Source of the DNA: Kosmotoga olearia TBF 19.5.1
GTDB lineage: Bacteria; Thermotogota; Thermotogae; Petrotogales; Kosmotogaceae
Assembly (NCBI RefSeq): GCF_000023325.1
Contig: NC_012785.1
Span: 1,302,001-1,366,000 of the forward strand
Direction: 5' to 3'
DNA length: 64,000 nucleotides
Shown here piece by piece: positions 1,235-53,947 of the stretch. The position numbers and the translations under genes are program-made. The notes under the pieces are model-generated. The model saw nothing but the letters and a program-made list of their open reading frames with translations. It did no database searches and was not told the DNA's origin. Positions within the stretch are counted from its first letter, which is position 1. The number at the start of each line of letters is the position of its first letter.

Positions 1235-1280
1235 TAAAACTCGAGAACCGAGAGTCCGAGAATCCGAGAAGGTAAGACGA
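1235..1280 (-). repeat. Inverted copy of the CT-rich array spacer
   Basis: The plus strand shows repeated CCGAGA units (CCGAGAGTCCGAGAATCCG), the reverse complement of the TCTCGGATTCTCGG spacer found in all arrays of this window. It is one of only two clear spacers in this orientation; the other lies at 21160-21205. The rest of 986-1375 shows no gene. Confidence 0.6.
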
Positions 1281-5876: not shown

Positions 5877-6465
5877 CATATTACCGGTTGCTGGGTGTAG
5901 AGCAATCCTCTCGGGTTCTATTCCGCCGTATGCACGTGTCATCGACAAAGTCGGTCGAGATAACTGCGCCGGACTTACCCACACGAAGCGTGTTTACCAG
6001 TTCTCTATTTTTCAAGCCGCAAAGCAACCCTTTCGCTTTTTGATTTTTACGTACAACGCACAACGTACAACCGACAACGGTTTTTATCGCTGCGCAACAG
6101 TTCGCAACAACTACGAAGCAGTTCGGGTCAACTCCAAAGGAGTTCGTATCACCGGCGAAGCCGGTCGTATCAATCCCGAAGGGATTCGTATCCGCCGCGC
6201 AGCGGCTATCTCGGTTCTCGGCTTTTTATCAGCGTCTGCGAGCCCCAACCTCGTGAGCGTCAACGTCGTGAGCCTCCTGAGCGCAGCTCAGCACTTCACA
6301 GCTTAGCTGCTTTCCGCCGCGCAGCGGCTCTCTCGGTTCTCGGACTCTCGGATTCTCGTATTCTTATCAGGAGTTCGTATCACCGGCGAAGCCGGTCGTA
6401 TCAATCCCGCAGGGATTCGTGTCGCCGCGAAGCGGCTCTCTCGGACTCTCGGATCCTTGTCTCTC
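5877..6465 (+). repeat. 21-nt phased GNA-hairpin array (best exemplar)
   Basis: Six successive mini inverted repeats have loop centres at 6095, 6116, 6137, 6158, 6179 and 6200, exactly 21 nt apart. Stems differ: ACCGGC-GAA-GCCGGT (6151-6165), AATCCC-GAA-GGGATT (6172-6186) and CCGC-GCA-GCGG (6195-6205). The same stems recur at 6381-6434 with loops GAA, GCA and GAA, so the middle loop base is free while G and A are kept. CT-rich spacers of TCTCGGTTCTCGG type and the CTGAGC-GCA-GCTCAG module follow. Reading frames cross the array as heptapeptide repeats, but I see no start site or codon bias supporting a protein. Confidence 0.85.
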
Positions 6466-6500: not shown

Positions 6501-6533
6501 ATACTTAAATAGAAAAAATTAAATACAGAAAAA

Positions 6534-6646
6534 TTCTCCGGGGCAGGGTGAAATTCCCGACCGGCGGTGAAAGCCCGCGAGCTCCTGAAGGAGTTGATCC
6601 GGTGGAATTCCGGAGCCGACGGTGAAAGTCCGGATGGGAGGAGAAT
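6534..6646 (+). promoter_or_regulatory. FMN riboswitch (RFN element)
   Basis: The conserved RFN core is fully present. It includes GGGGCAGGGTGAAATTCCCG, the CGGCGGTGAAAGCCCGCGAG arm, GATCCGGTGGAATTCCGG, and CCGACGGTGAAAGTCCGG before the closing GGGAGGAGAA, which pairs with the opening TTCTCC. It binds FMN and lies directly upstream of a rho-independent terminator and ribD, so it should repress riboflavin synthesis by transcription termination when FMN is plentiful. Confidence 0.97.
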
Positions 6647-6691
6647 TGATAGTAGATAAAAAGCAATGTATATGTTGCGATATTGAATCTT

Positions 6692-14099: not shown

Positions 14100-14444
14100 A
14101 GTCCAGCACTTCAGTAGAGTAGCTGCTTTCCGCCGAAGGCGCACATCAACTGCGCAGCAGTTCGCAACAACCACGAAGTGGTTCGCAACAATCCCGAAGG
14201 GATTCGCATCCGCCGCGCAGCGGCTATCTCGGTTCTCGGACTCTCGGATTCTTATCAGCGTCTGCAAGCCTCAACGTCGTGAGCCTCCTGAGCGCAGCTC
14301 AGCACTTTCGCCGCATAGCGGCCCTCTCGCCTTCTCGGCTTCTCAGACTCTCGATGTTTTCTCTATACCCTAGACTCCAGACCCTATCCCCGCTTTTGGT
14401 TCTTTCCGCCGAAGGCGCGTGTCAACTGCGAAGCAGTTCGAGAC
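14100..14444 (+). repeat. Hairpin-module array, left part split by IS3
   Basis: Phased hairpins AACTGC-GCA-GCAGTT, AACCAC-GAA-GTGGTT, AATCCC-GAA-GGGATT and CCGC-GCA-GCGG are followed by CT-rich spacers and the CTATACCCTAGACTCCAGAC block. The array continues at 15860 beyond the IS3 element. The uninterrupted version is seen at 18070-18273 and 32385-32612. Confidence 0.85.
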
Positions 14445-15859: not shown

Positions 15860-16030
15860 GAGACAACCACGAAGTGGTTCGCAACAACTCCGCAGGAGTT
15901 CGTATCAATCCCGAAGGGATTCGTGTCCCTGCTGCAAAGCAGCTTTCTCGGACTCTCGAAGTTTTTTTGGTGGACTGTCCCCATTTTCCATATCCGCTGC
16001 GAAGCAGCGCACAGTGGAGTACCTCCATTT
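15860..16030 (+). repeat. Hairpin-module array, right part
   Basis: The array resumes after the IS with AACCAC-GAA-GTGGTT, AACTCC-GCA-GGAGTT, AATCCC-GAA-GGGATT and CTGCT-GCAA-AGCAG in 21-nt phase, then a spacer. A partial GGTGGACTGTCCCCATTTTC REP half-site (about 15969-15988) and CCGCTGC-GAA-GCAGCG follow. Confidence 0.8.
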
Positions 16031-16654: not shown

Positions 16655-16860
16655 GCAATGTCAACTGCGAAGCAGTTTGCATCAACTCCGAAGGAGTTCG
16701 CCTCACTGGCGTCAGCCAGTCGTATCTTTTGTAAATATTAGAGTCTGTCCTGTCCTTTTTTACTTTGATTCATCTTCGTCTCTCGTGGCCGCGTAGTGGC
16801 CCTCTCGGTTCTCGGACTCTCGATGTTTTTTGGTGGACTGTCCCAATTTTTCTCGGACTG
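16655..16860 (+). repeat. Hairpin-module array intruding into the acetyltransferase 3' end
   Basis: AACTGC-GAA-GCAGTT, AACTCC-GAA-GGAGTT and ACTGGC-GTCA-GCCAGT are followed by spacers and a GGTGGACTGTCCCAATTT REP half-site. The part from 16770 is translated as the last residues of the minus-strand acetyltransferase. Confidence 0.8.
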
Positions 16861-17687: not shown

Positions 17688-18273
17688 TCGGTTACACCAA
17701 CTCCGAAGGAGTTCGTACCACTGACGAAGCCAGTTGTACCAACGCGGAGAGCACGCGCGACACGCTGACTTCGTCAGGACTAGGATTAGCACACTGCGTG
17801 TTGACATGCGCTCCTTCGTCGCGGCTATGCGGCCCTTCGAGTCGGAATAAGACATTTTCTAATCCGCCGCAGGCGCAAAGCCGTTCCGTAGGAACGCATA
17901 GCCTGAGCGAAGCCCAATACGGCCGCTGCGAAGCAGGGAATTTCTCGCCCTCTCGGACTCTCGGATTCTTATCAGGAGTTCGTGACAATCCCGAAGGGAT
18001 TCGTATCCGCCGCGCAGCGCCTCTCTCGGTTCTCGATTGTCACGTACAACCTACAACGATTTTATATTCTCACCTTTTCGGCTTCTCAGACTCTCGATGT
18101 TTTCTCTATACCCTAGACTCCAGACCCTATCCCCGCTTTTGGTTCTTTCCGCCGAAGGCGCGTGTCAACTGCGAAGCAGTTCGAGACAACCACGAAGTGG
18201 TTCGCAACAACTCCGCAGGAGTTCGTATCAATCCCGAAGGGATTCGTGTCCCTGCTGCAAAGCAGCTTTCTCG
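17688..18273 (+). repeat. Long hairpin-module array upstream of the group II intron
   Basis: Phased loops are centred at 18074+100 (18174), 18195, 18216 and 18237, each 21 nt apart. Earlier modules include GTTCC-GTA-GGAAC (17883-17895), which appears with a GAA loop at 30695-30707. The CTATACCCTAGACTCC block is at about 18105-18125. The array ends in CTGCTGCAAAGCAGC then TTTCTCG, where the intron begins. Confidence 0.85.
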
Positions 18274-20269
18274 GTGTGCCCGGCATGACATACAACTATA
18301 GGGTGAAAGTCCCGAATGCGGGGAGCGAGATAAGCATTAGCTGAGGGCAAGGGTGTCACTGGTAACGGTGAATCTGAAGGAAGCCTAAGGCAAAATCTGG
18401 AACTGAACGAAAGTGAACCAGTGTTGGCCGGTAGAGAGGGTAACCTTGCCGAGAATGGGTAAGCCCGAGCTCCAACTCTACAGGTTTGGATGGCAGGATT
18501 CGGATGAAAGCTGTATGTCTTACCCGGGGAAGTCCTCACTCGTCCCAAAATGGGTAAGCCGGAACAAGGGGAGACCCAAGGACTGGTGAAGCGGAGGAGG
18601 ATGGCAGACGAACCCGTAGTAGTGTTGAACCTCTCTGAAAGGAGAAGGGACTATCGCCTTGAGCGATGGGGGTAACAGGAACCGAAAGGGCCTGTTACTT
18701 GCGAAGGGGGGAAGGATTGAGGAAATGGCACAAAGGGAAGCGAGTATAACAGGAGTCCGTAACGGAGGCTGAAATGCTAACGACGGTTGAGAATAGCCGG
18801 GGCAGGTAAGTAACCATTGCAAAGATAGGAAGATTCCCGGGGGGGGGGTAAAGAATCCAATCTTTGGATGGGAGAAGAAACCGATTCTGTTATATGCGAC
18901 TTATCCGGAAGGCCATACAGGAGGAAACATGAGGAAGTACTACAGTCTTATTGACAAAGTTTATCTGGAAGCGAACCTGGTCAAAGCATATCACAAGGTG
19001 CGGAAGAACAACGGAGCACCTGGGATAGATGGAGTAACGGTTCAGGAGTATGGAGAAAACCTTCTGGAAAGGATTAAGAAACTCAGCGAAAAGTTGCGAA
19101 AAGGAGAATACCGGCCTTCACCGGTAAAAAGGGTAGAAATCCCGAAAGGAAATGGGAAGACACGTATGCTCGGGATACCGACGGTAGAGGATCGAATAGT
19201 ACAACAATCGCTGAAAGAAATAATGGAACCAATCTTTGAGGAAGGATTTCATCCTTCAAGTTATGGATACAGGAAAGGAAGGAATCCACACCAGGCAGTA
19301 GAGAAAGCCTATGCCTTCGCGTGCAAATACAAAATGAAATACGTGGTACAGTTAGACCTTAGTCAATGCTTTGACACCTTAGACCACGAAAAGATGATAG
19401 ACGCAGTAGCGGAAAGAATAAGCGATGGCAAAATATTGAGACTAATAAGAAGTTTCCTCAAAAGTGGAGTCATAACAGACCAATACCAACCCAGTGAGAT
19501 GGGAAGTCCACAGGGCGGAGTAATAAGCCCCCTGCTATCCAACATCTATCTGAACAAATTTGACCAGAAAATGATGGCCAGAGGAATAAGGATAGTGAGA
19601 TATGCAGATGACATACTAATCTTCGCAAAGAGCTACAAAAGCGCGGAAAAATATCTGAGAATAGCTATCCGAATACTGGAAAAAGAGCTGAAATTGAAGG
19701 TCAACAAAGAAAAGACGAGAATAACCACGATAGATGATGGAATCGAATTTCTTGGATTCACCATACAAAAAGGCAAAATACGAATCCAGGAAAAGAAAAT
19801 GAAGAGGTTCAAAGCCAAAGCAAAAACACTCACCCGAAGAAACCAATGTACACCGATCGGAGAGATAATAAAACGACTAAACCAATTGCTGAGAGGCTTC
19901 AGCAATTACTACAAAATAATCGACTGGGTGGGCGTATTCAGAGACCTCATGGGTTGGATAAGAAGGAGATTGAGAGCCATAATCCTGCGACAATGGAAAA
20001 CGACAAAGAAACTACGCAGGGTGATGAGACAAAAAGGATACAGAGGCGAAATATCCGGAATAAGAATGAACAAATGGAGAAGCTCTCGATCGCGATTGGT
20101 CAGTAGACTACTGCCTAACAAATATTTTCAGAAGATAGGGCTGTATGATATGAAGCTTTCACATGTACCACTGTCGGAGAATCCGATACTCAATCCATGA
20201 GCCGTGTACGTTGACCCGTACGCACGGTTCTGTGAGAGGACGAGGGGCATTGCCCCTCTCCTACTCGAT
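18274..20269 (+). mobile_element. Group II intron with reverse transcriptase
   Basis: The 1996-nt element begins GTGTGCCCGG, fitting the GUGYG 5' consensus. It has a domain V-like hairpin at 20199-20230 (GAGCCGTG...CACGGTTC) and a domain VI ending CTCCTACTCGAT at 20269. Domain IV holds the RT gene. EBS1 is predicted as CGAGAA at 18450-18455, complementary to TTCTCG (18268-18273) just before the 5' splice site. Insertion after a hairpin plus TTTCTCG, and an RT without endonuclease, resemble class C introns. It lies inside the repeat array. Confidence 0.92.
18929..20200 (+). CDS. ltrA: Group II intron reverse transcriptase/maturase
   Basis: The protein has 423 residues. RT motifs in order: NNGAPGIDGVTVQEY, GKTRMLGIPTVEDRIVQQ, PSSYGYRKGRNPHQA, QLDLSQCFDTLDH, MGSPQGGVISPLLSNIYL, and the catalytic RYADDILIF (about residue 227). 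The C-terminal third (GFSNYY and RKLRRVMRQKGYRG) is the maturase domain. There is no HNH endonuclease, as in class C/D introns that use existing nicks or forks. It helps splicing and reverse transcription of the host intron. A GGAGG site precedes the ATG by 6 nt. Confidence 0.95.
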   Translation: MRKYYSLIDKVYLEANLVKAYHKVRKNNGAPGIDGVTVQEYGENLLERIKKLSEKLRKGEYRPSPVKRVEIPKGNGKTRMLGIPTVEDRIVQQSLKEIMEPIFEEGFHPSSYGYRKGRNPHQAVEKAYAFACKYKMKYVVQLDLSQCFDTLDHEKMIDAVAERISDGKILRLIRSFLKSGVITDQYQPSEMGSPQGGVISPLLSNIYLNKFDQKMMARGIRIVRYADDILIFAKSYKSAEKYLRIAIRILEKELKLKVNKEKTRITTIDDGIEFLGFTIQKGKIRIQEKKMKRFKAKAKTLTRRNQCTPIGEIIKRLNQLLRGFSNYYKIIDWVGVFRDLMGWIRRRLRAIILRQWKTTKKLRRVMRQKGYRGEISGIRMNKWRSSRSRLVSRLLPNKYFQKIGLYDMKLSHVPLSENPILNP

Positions 20270-23159: not shown

Positions 23160-23600
23160 AAAGTTGCACCCACTCCGAAGAAGAGCATACCCTCAACGAA
23201 GCCGAGCTTACCCACGCGCTAGCGTGCTCACCAGCCGCGCAGCGGCTTTCTCTGGTCTCGAATCTCGATTTTCGATTGTCACGCACAACCCACAACGCAC
23301 AACCAACAACGGCTTTGGCTCACCCCTGACAAAGTCAAGCTTACCCTTGGCGCAGCCAAGCTTACCCACGCGCTAGCGTGCTTACCGGATCTCGGTTCTC
23401 GAACTCTCGATGTTTTCTCTATACCCTATACCCCAGACCCTATACCCGCTTTTGGTTCTTTCCGCCGAAGGCGCGTGTCAACTGCGCAGCAGTTCGAAAC
23501 AACTCCGAAGGAGTTCGTGACAACTCTGAAAGAGTTCGTGTCAATCCCGAAGGGATTCGTTGCTGCAAAACAGTTTGCTCCGCTGGCTTGCTATCCAAAG
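23160..23600 (+). repeat. Hairpin-module array
   Basis: Modules include CTTGGC-GCA-GCCAAG (about 23347-23361), CACGC-GCTA-GCGTG and phased hairpins centred at 23487, 23508, 23529 and 23550. The one at 23529 has stem AACTCT/AGAGTT, a compensated variant of AACTCC/GGAGTT. A diverged CTATACCCTATACCCCAGAC block is at 23420-23440. No gene is seen before 23846. Confidence 0.83.
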
Positions 23601-30640: not shown

Positions 30641-30795
30641 AAGACGTAGTCAAGTACTTCACAGCGTAGCTGCTTTCCGCCGCAGGCGCAAAGCCGTTCC
30701 GAAGGAACGCATAGCCTGAGCGCAGCTCAGCACTTTCGCCGCATAGCGGCCCTCTCGCCTTCTCGGACTCTCGGATTCTCGTGTTTTTATCAGAA
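30641..30795 (+). repeat. Hairpin-module array
   Basis: It carries GTTCC-GAA-GGAAC (30695-30707), CTGAGC-GCA-GCTCAG, CCGC-ATA-GCGG and CT-rich spacers. No gene is seen between uridine phosphorylase and the permease. Confidence 0.8.
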
Positions 30796-32232: not shown

Positions 32233-32670
32233 TATCATCCTGAACTTGATTCAGGATCTATCATTCTTGATCTCTCGGATCTCGCCTTCTCGGTTCTCGG
32301 ATTTCGGTTCTCGGCTTTTTATCAGCGTCTGCGAGCCTCAACCTCGTGAGCGTCAACGTCGTGAGCCTCCTGAGCGCAGCTCAGCACTTTCGCCGCATAG
32401 CGGCCCTCTCGCCTTCTCGGCTTCTCAGACTCTCGATGTTTTCTCTATACCCTAGACTCCAGACCCTATCCCCGCTTTTGGTTCTTTCCGCCGAAGGCGC
32501 GTGTCAACTGCGAAGCAGTTCGAGACAACCACGAAGTGGTTCGCAACAACTCCGCAGGAGTTCGTATCAATCCCGAAGGGATTCGTGTCCCTGCTGCAAA
32601 GCAGCTTTCTCGGACTCTCGGATTCTCGGATTCTTATCAGGAGTTCGTATCACCGGCGAAGCCAGACACA
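32233..32670 (+). repeat. Repeat array with intact long block
   Basis: It begins with one TCCTGAACTTGATTCAGGA hairpin and continues with spacers, CTGAGC-GCA-GCTCAG, the CTATACCCTAGACTCC block and four GNA hairpins in 21-nt phase (32505-32600). The 32385-32612 segment is almost identical to 18070-18273. That makes it the uninterrupted reference for both the IS3 and the intron insertions. Confidence 0.85.
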
Positions 32671-33294: not shown

Positions 33295-33500
33295 CGGGAG
33301 CTTACACCCCCGACGCAGCCGGGCTTACCCTTGGCGAAGCCAAGCTTACCCACGCGCTAGCGTGCTCACCAGCAGCGCAGCGGCTCTCTCGGTTCTCGGA
33401 TTCTCGGATTCTCGGATTCTTATCAGGAGTTCGCACCACTGGCATTAGCCAGTCGCACCCACGCGCAGCGTGTTTACCCGCTTTCGCTTTCTCGATTTTG
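33295..33500 (+). repeat. Hairpin-module array
   Basis: CTTGGC-GAA-GCCAAG, CACGC-GCTA-GCGTG, CCGC-like modules, three TTCTCGGAT spacers, ACTGGC-ATTA-GCCAGT and CACGC-GCA-GCGTG are present. It lies between the toxin-antitoxin promoter and the ATPase gene. Confidence 0.8.
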
Positions 33501-34984: not shown

Positions 34985-35172
34985 AACGTCGCTCCACCAA
35001 TTGACAGTCTCACAAGCCTCCTGGACATAGTCCAGCACTTCGCAGCGTAGCTGCTTTCCGCCGCGCAGCGGCTATCTCGGTTCTCGGACTCTCGGACTCT
35101 CGGATTCTCGGATTCTTATCAGGAGTTCGCACCACTGGCATTAGCCAGTCGTACCCACGCGAAGCGTGTTTA
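34985..35172 (+). repeat. Hairpin-module array
   Basis: CTGGAC-ATA-GTCCAG, CCGC-GCA-GCGG, a spacer with TCTCGGA repeated four times, ACTGGC-ATTA-GCCAGT and CACGC-GAA-GCGTG are present. It ends at the stop codon of the convergent phosphatase gene. Confidence 0.8.
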
Positions 35173-37921: not shown

Positions 37922-38453
37922 AGTCTAATCGAATCATGTTGTACAGTACATTGGAAAGGAAATATGGCGATATTTAACGTGGCAGCAAAAAGAAGTTCAA
38001 TTATGTTGGATTATATGTAGCATACATTGAAATACCTATATTGTGTATATGGCCATAGAAAATTGACCCCCTACCCCTGGTAAAAAACTTCTTGGGCAGG
38101 ATAATAGAATCAATCTGCAAGCGTCGCATTATCAATTGTCAGCGTCCGCAAGCCTCAACCTCGTGAGCCTCCTGAGCGCAGCTCAGCACTTTCGCCGCAT
38201 AGCGGCCCTCTCGCCTTCTCGGACTCTCGGATTCTCGGATTCTTATCAGGAGTTCGTATCACCGGCGAAGCCGGTCGTAACAATCCCAAAGGGATTCGCA
38301 TCCGCCGCGTAGCGGCTATCTCGGATTCTCGGATTCTTATCAGGAGTTCGCACCACTGGCACAGCCAGTCGCACTCTTTCTCAGTTCAAGGCGCCATCTC
38401 TTGATCCTGCTACTTTTAGTGGTTTAAAATAAAAATAGAGGAGGAACAGAAAA
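37922..38453. repeat. Gap with hairpin-module array (38110-38395)
   Basis: From 37922 to 38105 I see nothing recognisable. From 38110 there are CTGAGC-GCA-GCTCAG, spacers, ACCGGC-GAA-GCCGGT, AATCCC-AAA-GGGATT, CCGC-GTA-GCGG and ACTGGC-ACA-GCCAGT. The AAA and ACA loops are decayed exceptions to the GNA rule. Confidence 0.8.
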
Positions 38454-39439: not shown

Positions 39440-39655
39440 TTATTTTAAGTAATGTCAACTGCGCAGCAGTTCGGGTCAACTCCGTAGGAGTTCGTGACAA
39501 CTCAGAATGAGTTCGCTCCAATCCCGAAGGGATTCGTGTCTGCCGCGCAGCGGCTATCTCGGTTCTCGGACTCTCGGATTCTCGGATTCTTATCACGAGT
39601 TCGAGACAACCACAAGCAGTTCGCGTCCGCCGTGCAGCGCCAAGCCTTGTAAACA
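39440..39655 (+). repeat. Phased hairpin array with compensatory stems
   Basis: Loop centres are at 39464, 39485, 39506, 39527 and 39548, all 21 nt apart. Stems and loops in order: AACTGC-GCA, AACTCC-GTA, AACTCA-GAA (partner TGAGTT), AATCCC-GAA and CCGC-GCA. After a spacer, CGAGTTCGAGACAACC begins the segment shared with 53190-53254 next to the second RAYT. Confidence 0.87.
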
Positions 39656-40348
39656 TTACCTTTTCTTTGGTCTGCCTTTTGGCCTTCTTTTCAGTGGGAG
39701 GCCCAAAACCTCTTCAAATTTAGCAATTTTTTCGTCGTTAAAAAATAATCTTCCAGTAGAAGTATTCCTTCGTATATTAGAAAGAAAATCATTACTATCC
39801 GGATATCCAAGATATTCTTTCCATCCGTCAGGATTCCAGTTAAATCCAAAATCTGACAAATCGCTTAAGTGAAGAAAATGGGGACTTTCCCTCCGTGTGT
39901 CCCCATTTTCTTTTACACGTACCCTAGCGCTCGACCATTCATAATCCCAGGGAAATTCAACTATCTTTGCTCTTACGGGGTTTCGCTCAACATATTTAAC
40001 AGCCGAAATAGCATGTTCTTGATCGAGAGGGCAGGAATAGAATCTTCCCTGCCAGAGATGTCCCGTTCTATGATGTTTTCGATTAAAATACTGTGAGTAT
40101 CTCATATGAGCGTACTTAAAAGCCATGGCTAGAGAATCTTCTCTTTCAGGGACAGCGATAAAATGAACATGATTGGTCATGAGGCAATACGCATATATCT
40201 TGAGCCCATGTTTAGCTGAATATTCCTTAATGAATTCAAGATATTTGATTCTATCTTCAGGATCCTCAAAAACACTTTGACGATAATTACCCCTTTGCGT
40301 TACATGATGAGCAATACCCTCGAGAACAACCCTCGCGCTTCTTGGCAT
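39656..40348 (-). CDS. REP-associated tyrosine transposase, copy 1
   Basis: The 230-residue protein is Y1/HUH type: MTNHVHFIAVP is the HUH motif (about residues 69-79), and the catalytic Tyr is in AHMRYSQYF. The start MPRSARVVLEGIAHHVTQRG is diagnostic of RAYT proteins. Such enzymes cut single-stranded DNA at hairpins. Near residue 152 the protein contains KENGDTRRESPHFLH, encoded by an AAAATGGGGAC hairpin (39873-39911). The ATG at 40348 follows GGTGATGAA. It is nearly identical to the gene at 53255. Confidence 0.93.
   Translation of the reverse strand: MPRSARVVLEGIAHHVTQRGNYRQSVFEDPEDRIKYLEFIKEYSAKHGLKIYAYCLMTNHVHFIAVPEREDSLAMAFKYAHMRYSQYFNRKHHRTGHLWQGRFYSCPLDQEHAISAVKYVERNPVRAKIVEFPWDYEWSSARVRVKENGDTRRESPHFLHLSDLSDFGFNWNPDGWKEYLGYPDSNDFLSNIRRNTSTGRLFFNDEKIAKFEEVLGLPLKRRPKGRPKKR
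39873..39911 (-). repeat. REP hairpin inside RAYT copy 1
   Basis: AGAAAATGGGGAC and GTCCCCATTTTCT arms lie within the coding sequence and are translated in frame. Confidence 0.85.
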
Positions 40349-52734: not shown

Positions 52735-53254
52735 AGAGCTAAACGAACCACGATTATGTTTCAGCCCAGAATTTGTGGGTCAAGAGAGTGCTTGAAAAAT
52801 ATCTTGGAATAGGTCAAGCTCCTATGTTTAGATATCTCATTGATGCTACTCTTCATTGGTATCAGACAAGATAACGAGAGCAAATTTGATTTTCTTATTC
52901 TGCCGAAGGCGCATATCACTGCGAAGCTGTTCTCTCGAATCTCGAACACCGGATCCCGATTTTCAGATTCTAGTGTTTTTATCAGTCTTACCTCCAGCAA
53001 AGCTGGGTTCCCCTTTGCGTGTCATCCTGAACTTGATTCAGGATCTCGTTCTTAAAAAACAAGATTCTGGATAAAACATTTCCAGAATGACTATCTTTAC
53101 CCACTCCGAAGGAGTTATCGAGTAGGAGGGGGGATTCCCCCCCTCCTACTCGATCTCGCGTCAGCGTGCTTACCAGATTCTCGTATTCTTATCACGAGTT
53201 CGAGACAACCACGAGCAGTTCGCGTCCGCCGTGCAGCGCCAAGCCTTGTAAACA
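52735..53254. repeat. Composite repeat gap
   Basis: It begins with about 110 nt reading as an isolated peptide tail (LEKYLGIGQAPMFRYLIDAT), unrecognised. From 52900 there are array modules and spacers, a TCATCCTGAACTTG element (53019-53092), ACTCC-GAA-GGAGT, a 38-nt palindrome (53117-53154), and the segment shared with RAYT copy 1 (from about 53183). Confidence 0.75.
53117..53154. repeat. Perfect palindrome ending like the group II intron
   Basis: ATCGAGTAGGAGGGGGG and CCCCCCCTCCTACTCGAT form 17-bp arms around ATT. The last 11 nt, TCCTACTCGAT, equal the 3' terminus of the intron at 20259-20269. Confidence 0.7.
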
Positions 53255-53947
53255 TTACCTTTTCTTTGGTCTGCCTCTTGGCCTTCTTTTCAGTGGGAGG
53301 CCCAAAACCTCTTCAAATTTAGCAATTTTTTCGTCGTTAAAAAATAGTCTTCCAGTAGAAGTATTCCTTCGTATATTAGAAAGAAAATCATTACTATCCG
53401 GATATCCAAGATATTCTTTCCATCCGTCAGGATTCCAGTTAAATCCAAAATCTGACAAATCGCTTAAGTGAAGAAAATGAGGACTTTCCCTCCGTGTGTC
53501 CCCATTTTCTTTTACACGTACTCCAGCGCTCGACCATTCATAATCCCAGGGAAGTTCAACCATCTTTGCTCTCACGGGATTTCTCTCAACATATTTGACG
53601 GCCGAAATAGCATGTTCATGATCGAGAGGGCAGGAAAAGAATCTTCCCTGCCAAAGATGCCCTGTTCTATGGTGTTTTCGGTTGAAATACTGTGAGTATC
53701 TCATATGAGCGTACTTAAAAGCCATGGCTAGAGAATCTTCTCTTTCAGGGACAGCGATAAAATGAACATGATTGGTCATGAGGCAATACGCATATATCTT
53801 GAGCCCGTATTTGGTTGAATATTCCTTAATGAGCTCAAGGTACTTGATTCTGTCTTCAGGATCCTCAAAGATGTTCTGACGATAATTTCCCCTTTGGGTT
53901 ACATGATGAGCAATACCCTCGAGAACAACCCTCGCGCTTCTTGGCAT
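53255..53947 (-). CDS. REP-associated tyrosine transposase, copy 2
   Basis: The 230-residue near-duplicate of the gene at 39656 has the same HUH motif MTNHVHFIAVP, catalytic Tyr in HMRYSQYF and C-terminal RRPRGRPKKR. It also carries the in-frame insert KENGDTRRESPHFLH (hairpin 53472-53510, one arm mismatch). Start MPRSARVVLEG at 53947 follows GGTGGTGGATG. Homology with copy 1 continues into the array downstream and the GTCTGTCCCTATTTT site upstream, so the whole unit was duplicated. Confidence 0.93.
   Translation of the reverse strand: MPRSARVVLEGIAHHVTQRGNYRQNIFEDPEDRIKYLELIKEYSTKYGLKIYAYCLMTNHVHFIAVPEREDSLAMAFKYAHMRYSQYFNRKHHRTGHLWQGRFFSCPLDHEHAISAVKYVERNPVRAKMVELPWDYEWSSAGVRVKENGDTRRESPHFLHLSDLSDFGFNWNPDGWKEYLGYPDSNDFLSNIRRNTSTGRLFFNDEKIAKFEEVLGLPLKRRPRGRPKKR
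53472..53510 (-). repeat. REP hairpin inside RAYT copy 2
   Basis: AGAAAATGAGGAC and GTCCCCATTTTCT arms; one substitution in the left arm compared with copy 1 leaves the peptide unchanged. Confidence 0.8.

Follow-up and report, generated by a model that had tools for sequence, protein, structure and literature searches.

The intergenic regions of Kosmotoga olearia TBF 19.5.1 carry arrays of mini-hairpins with GNA-type loops that are repeated every 21 nt, and these arrays are real. We consider it reasonably likely that they form a REP-like family with a conserved DNA hairpin, which would serve as homing sites for class C group II introns and spread by recombination and slippage. We analyzed a window of 64,000 nt (positions 1,302,001 to 1,366,000 of the single 2,302,126-bp contig that makes up the chromosome; GC content, about 40%) and a 400-kb sample consisting of stretches evenly spaced over the genome. 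Direct reading covered about a quarter of the genome, and searches covered the remainder.

We found 30 pairs of perfect hairpins (5-bp stem, 3-nt loop) spaced 21 nt apart in the window, where a second-order Markov null gave 0, and 67 such pairs in the genome sample, where the null gave 1. These counts bear out the 21-nt autocorrelation that the initial annotation had proposed to look for. Additional peaks lay at 42 and 63 nt. The window also held 65 hairpins with GNA loops, compared with 5.9 under the second-order Markov null. The Markov null rules out chance or base composition as the source of the 21-nt spacing. The exact spacing claimed for the loop centers at 6137, 6158, 6179, and 6200 was recovered in our listing of perfect hairpins, as were the spacings at 18174, 18195, 18216, and 18237; at 23487, 23508, 23529, and 23550; and at 39464, 39485, 39506, 39527, and 39548. 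The loop centers at 6095 and 6116 keep the phase, but neither unit is a perfect hairpin, both being degenerate (GCTGC-GCA-ACAGT and ACTAC-GAA-GCAGT, respectively). GNA describes the loops of most units; unit 6137, however, has an AAA loop, and [G/A]NA is the better description (GAA, 67; GCA, 39; GTA, 16; AAA, 11; ACA, 6; ATA, 4; GGA, 2), with G being rare at the middle position. The loop had been placed mostly on the plus strand. This is true of all 14 window arrays of two or more units but not of the genome, in which both strands are used: we found at least 88 array loci, and among the loci listed, 39 are on the plus strand and 49 are on the minus strand.

Each unit consists of a 6-bp stem, a 3-nt loop, and a 6-nt linker, and the units follow head to tail every 21 nt. 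The sixth pair is usually formed between the final base of one linker and the first base of the next, and the unit is therefore read as a 6-bp stem plus a 6-nt linker. This pair is A-T in most series I units and C-G in the others. Series I linkers have the form CGNNNC, and those of other series are like CTTACC, CATAGC, and CACTTC. The units of series I come in the order TCGAC, ACTGC, ACCAC, ACTCC, then ACTCT, ACTCA, or CCGGC, then ATCCC and GCCGC; individual units are absent here and there, with the order kept. The common order within a series shows that its arrays were copied from one ancestral array, with whole units lost or gained, and all arrays descend from a few ancestral arrays. Duplication of a single block, the alternative named at the outset, thus describes the arrays within a series, which are copies of one ordered ancestral array, but not the units within an array or those of different series, which differ by compensated changes. 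We rejected a protein-coding 7-codon repeat, since none of the frames is consistently open (median, 94, 78, and 49 codons) and since spacings of 20 and 23 nt are present besides 21 nt.

All of the arrays that follow are on the plus strand of the window. Six 21-nt units, the first two degenerate, lie at 6089 to 6206 (GCTGC, ACTAC, ACTCC, CCGGC, ATCCC, and GCCGC), and CCGGC and ATCCC, followed at 20 nt by GCCGC, lie at 6383 to 6436. An FMN riboswitch at 6530 to 6649 is immediately 3' of this first array mosaic and 5' of riboflavin genes. Four units (ACTGC, ACCAC, ATCCC, and GCCGC) are found at 14149 to 14224, and two (TGAGC and GCCGC, with the linker GCACTTTC) are found at 14289 to 14322. The array at 15866 to 15943 runs ACCAC, ACTCC, ATCCC, and then GCTGC at 23 nt, and that at 18168 to 18266 runs ACTGC, ACCAC, ACTCC, ATCCC, and then GCTGC, also at 23 nt. 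Between them, at 16664 to 16697, are the two units ACTGC and ACTCC. Series II units (CTGAC and TTGGC, with the linkers GCTTACCC) lie at 23312 to 23372, shortly before ACTGC, ACTCC, ACTCT, and ATCCC at 23481 to 23556. The array at 30696 to 30750 contains GTTCC, TGAGC, and GCCGC, with the linkers GCATAGCC and GCACTTTC, and TGAGC and GCCGC recur as pairs at 32371 to 32404 and at 38173 to 38206. Farther along are CCGGC, ATCCC, and GCCGC at 38262 to 38316 and ACTGC, ACTCC, ACTCA, ATCCC, and GCCGC at 39458 to 39554. Other modules recur around the arrays, namely, TCTCGG runs, a GTCATCCTGAA..CAGAATGAC element, and a AAAATGGGGAC..GTCCCCATTTTC element, so that each intergenic region is a mosaic. Tandem runs of the 8-nt TCTCGGAT, variable in copy number, lie behind many arrays (window positions 1242 to 1270, 6331 to 6364, 33387 to 33420, 35082 to 35116, and 39557 to 39590) and are possible length-variable markers. 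At G000:C1:97638-98940 (L016 and others), tandem duplications of about 450 to 500 bp carry arrays at 97638, 98089, and 98591.

The stems covary. In 36 dimers, which were chosen as paired, each of the 12 base pairs was altered on both sides somewhere. Two further tests, in which units were located by their linkers or by a neighboring perfect unit, avoid most of this selection bias. Among 149 candidates located by linkers, 121 had all six pairs Watson-Crick, and of the 680 inner pairs in the 136 candidates that had at least three of five, 662 were Watson-Crick. For K. olearia units located by a neighbor, 2,216 of 2,305 pairs (96%) were Watson-Crick, and the others were G·T (27), A·C (32), or other mispairs (30). 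In the commonest unit types, the NNN positions of the linker are mostly off consensus in 30 to 65% of copies and most stem positions are off consensus in 0 to 5%. These types show 42 two-sided compensated changes versus 59 one-sided changes; inheritance of types such as ACTCT means that the two-sided changes cannot be counted as independent events. Additional paired stems occur in K. pacifica (for example, ATCGC/GCGAT and TGGGT/ACCCA).

The mispairs bear on whether the hairpins are selected as RNA, in transcribed 3' regions, where they would be mRNA stabilizers, processing sites, or weak terminators. In an RNA under selection, G-U is expected to be better tolerated than A-C on the transcribed strand. 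We found that G·T was no commoner than A·C, which argues for structure at the DNA level. Moreover, the RNA family search matched the arrays to no known family, and their orientation to codirectional neighbor genes is mixed (11 sense, 6 antisense). An RNA function would be in keeping with the location of the arrays, which are intergenic (of 43 sampled arrays, 42 are outside ORFs) and enriched between convergent genes, where 18 of 41 arrays are found and which hold 22% of intergenic bases. Both strands are also predicted to fold better than shuffled sequence as RNA, and the same prediction holds for DNA. On balance, we regard selection as RNA as unlikely. A role as single-stranded DNA structures, as initially suggested, fits both the absent wobble preference and the intron insertions described below. 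A tentative extension of this idea, possible but not one that we would press, is that the tandem hairpins are the DNA counterpart of a structured RNA: their shape, their loops, and the 21-nt phase would be kept while the stems drift pairwise, and the folded single strand would be read by a host or element factor, with intron homing being one use. Inverted (TTC) loops, present in 3 of 337 in-register K. olearia units, hint at template switching, which can keep hairpin arms complementary (PMC8794818). The identity of the arms can be kept in this way or by selection.

The same design was sought in related genomes and was found in several Kosmotogaceae. We counted 12 distance-21 pairs in K. pacifica, 2 in a Mesotoga-like genome, and 1 in a remoter relative. 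Within the phylum, a covariance model built from K. olearia units, which distant designs would escape, matched K. pacifica and two further genomes with the same genus label (G002, G006, and G008); it also found single cases among Mesotoga-like genomes, and it matched G056 and G096, members of other families, on small contigs. An exact two-unit pattern, searched over GTDB genome contigs, matched only two contigs of metagenome-assembled genomes (L128 and L129, labeled Thermotogaceae and Kosmotogales), which are about 97 to 99.5% identical to K. olearia over the array locus and differ from it by whole-module changes. Given this identity, the array matches of G004 and G042 are probably misbinned Kosmotoga-like contigs. 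We ruled out a phage or plasmid origin, as no array match was found in phages and plasmids by blastn or in viral contigs by pattern search. Within K. olearia, the loci listed are densest at 1.28 to 1.43 Mb.

This distribution also bears on a possible host function. A nucleoid or recombination protein might read the arrays as folded DNA or as phased palindromes two helical turns apart, with selection keeping the arrays. The strict 21-nt phase, the pairing without sequence conservation, and the sharing of arrays by several Kosmotogaceae speak for such a reader. However, copy number is uneven among relatives (at least 80 listed matches in G000, at least 39 in G006, and at least 20 in G002), and most genomes of the same family have no array among the covariance model matches listed. 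In addition, the K. pacifica region upstream of ribD has no array, whereas its K. olearia counterpart carries those at 6089 to 6436. We consider a host reader doubtful.

The best-supported user of the array hairpins is a class C group II intron. We found 11 RF02001 introns in the K. olearia genome, all above the gathering score; the copies checked also have RF00029 at their 3' ends. All 11 sit 6 nt behind an array hairpin. Since arrays make up only 0.54% of the unbiased K. olearia sequence sample, this position is not due to chance. The window contains one class C-like intron (18274 to 20269, plus strand), whose 5' exon is the array at 18168 to 18266; it lies behind the last hairpin of this array, with GCTGC-AAA-GCAGC and then TTTCTCG in its 5' flank and the junction GCAGCTTTCTCG^GTGTGCCC. 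An intron-free copy of this array is present at 32507 to 32605 (plus strand), and the sequence from 32490 to 32606 is identical to the intron-bearing locus. The intron encodes a reverse transcriptase/maturase (IEP; 18929 to 20200, plus strand), in which Pfam found RVT_1 and GIIM only and no endonuclease domain. Along its length, this IEP resembles the GsI-IIC reverse transcriptase, its closest solved relative (E = 1.4e-86). On the basis of the ribozyme core, the IEP without an endonuclease, and the site behind a hairpin and IBS1, we assign the introns to class C. When the exons of ten introns are joined, the linker is followed by the next stem, as in GGGATTGTTACG^AACCACTGCGTGGTT; the window intron instead precedes a TCTCGG run, and the eleventh intron (90026) has CCTGACTTCGTCAGG directly downstream. 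Ten of the introns are on the pyrimidine-loop strand, and the window intron is on the purine-loop strand. A 38-nt palindrome at 53117 to 53154, beside an array hairpin, consists of two head-to-head intron 3' ends (ATCGAGTAGGAGGGGGG..CCTCCTACTCGAT) and is perhaps an intron remnant. No RF02001 intron was found in the array-bearing relatives G002 and G006. Thus, the introns did not make the arrays and are not the reason why arrays exist.

The intron guide matches the linker that it occupies. We took a D1 hairpin's terminal loop as EBS1 and found that it reads CTTAC where the intron follows a GTAAG or GTGAG linker and CGAGA or CGTGA where it follows TCTCG, TCACG, and similar linkers. Between EBS1 and the occupied linker, the score was 47.5 of 55 for the true pairs and 34.2 for shuffled ones (P = 0.001, which is approximate because the intron copies are related); introns L153 and L159 pair poorly. 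Six introns were examined in two Mesotoga-like genomes. All of them lie behind a repeat hairpin of another kind (GTCATCCCGAAC..GTTTCGGGATCTG, GTCATGCCGG..CCGGCATCTC, or a variant), and their EBS1 loop, CAGAT or GAGAT, is complementary to ATCTG and ATCTC. For the Mesotoga-like introns L168, L169, L177, L178, L185, and L186, the hairpin in front is a repeat of the GTCATCCCG..CGGGATCT type, which their EBS1 matches. Repeats similar to these hairpins, GTCATCCTGAA, precede many K. olearia arrays. The matching guides in both groups suggest that these lineages use host repeat hairpins. Most introns read in the f2 family lie behind terminator-like hairpins with T runs, and we infer that intron lineages moved away from terminators.

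The introns also share an orientation. Gene-corrected GC skew has a negative sign between 0 and about 0.95 Mb, turning mostly positive past 1.04 Mb, and 10 of the 11 introns have one orientation relative to this axis. The arrays, for which the initial annotation had raised a strand bias, show none overall (28 minus and 17 plus on one side, 21 minus and 22 plus on the other). Class C introns have been reported to prefer the lagging-strand template (PMC8919778). An origin near 1.05 Mb, where the skew has its minimum, would make the intron sense strand the lagging-strand template. However, dnaA lies close to position 1; because this disagrees with the skew axis, the assignment is provisional.

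RAYTs had been put forward as enzymes that might cut the hairpins, and the arrays could accordingly be REPs mobilized by RAYT as TnpA_REP substrates. K. olearia has two Y1 transposase (RAYT-like) genes, both inside the array-rich window, and one is 66 bp from an array. The two copies are 95% identical over 839 bp, which include about 60 bp of decayed array, and array-bearing and RAYT-bearing genomes overlap within the family. This overlap involves few genomes, however, and G004 probably owes its array match to a misbinned contig. What flanks RAYT at its 5' side, both in K. olearia and in several of its relatives, is a AAAATAGGGACAGACNCC-type repeat (also given as AAAATAGGGACAG) and not GNA arrays; the arrays are therefore not the cognate repeats of RAYT. 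The arrays also have no GTAG or CGTC foot and no alternating orientation. We find mobilization by RAYT quite improbable. Both RAYT reading frames contain a repeat of the AAAATGGGGAC..GTCCCCATTTTC type, at about 39875 to 39920 and 53474 to 53520.

The initial annotation knew of no named repeat family of this design, and we likewise found no published name in open-licence papers and no match among known RNA families. Like REP elements and BIMEs (PMC3733652, PMC2817692), the arrays are short palindromes of high copy number in intergenic mosaic clusters; unlike them, each unit has its own stem, and the units have a 21-nt head-to-tail phase and [G/A]NA loops. REPs of the GTAG/CGTC type have a constant foot tetranucleotide and flank their cognate RAYT, whereas the arrays have no such foot (NNN is variable in the CGNNNC of series I, and other series differ) and only adjoin RAYT in places. 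BIMEs and REPINs alternate inverted REPs, whereas array units keep the loop on the same strand. CRISPRs have identical repeats and unique spacers, in contrast to the variable stems and semiconserved linkers found here. Extragenic palindromes are specific insertion sites for a mobile element in IS-targeted REPs as well (PMC1525189), a precedent for repeats as landing sites, but the K. olearia invader is a group II intron that recognizes hairpin and linker rather than an IS transposase. Class C introns behind intrinsic terminators or attC sites (PMC4424553, PMC8919778) share the IEP without an endonuclease domain, the position a few nucleotides behind a hairpin, and the EBS1-IBS1 pairing. They differ in that all 11 K. 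olearia introns are in the arrays of one repeat family, with EBS1 variants per linker, and in that the six Mesotoga-like introns examined are behind another repeat. The repetitive hairpin elements of organelle genomes (PMC2800124, PMC4524435) are likewise dispersed intergenic hairpin families.

We favor a model in which the conserved feature is the DNA hairpin and not its sequence. Each unit would fold in single-stranded DNA, most likely the lagging-strand template. The RNP of the class C intron would recognize the folded hairpin, its EBS1 loop would pair with the 5 linker bases preceding the next stem (IBS1), and reverse splicing would occur between the linker and the next hairpin. The arrays, which are probably REP-like, selfish, and landing sites for the intron, would be harmless multicopy homing sites, selfish or neutral for the host. 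They would spread and change length most likely by recombination and slippage in the 21-nt register, with recombination suggested by common blocks and module swaps. Correction by template switching (quasipalindrome), selection that favors the hairpin, or both may keep the stem arms complementary. Stems that covary without a wobble preference provide a natural data set on whether compensatory hairpin changes arise by selection or by template switching. The matched EBS1/linker pairs within one genome make the targeting rules of class C introns testable, and the guide of a retroelement appears to have been retuned to its host's own repeat family.
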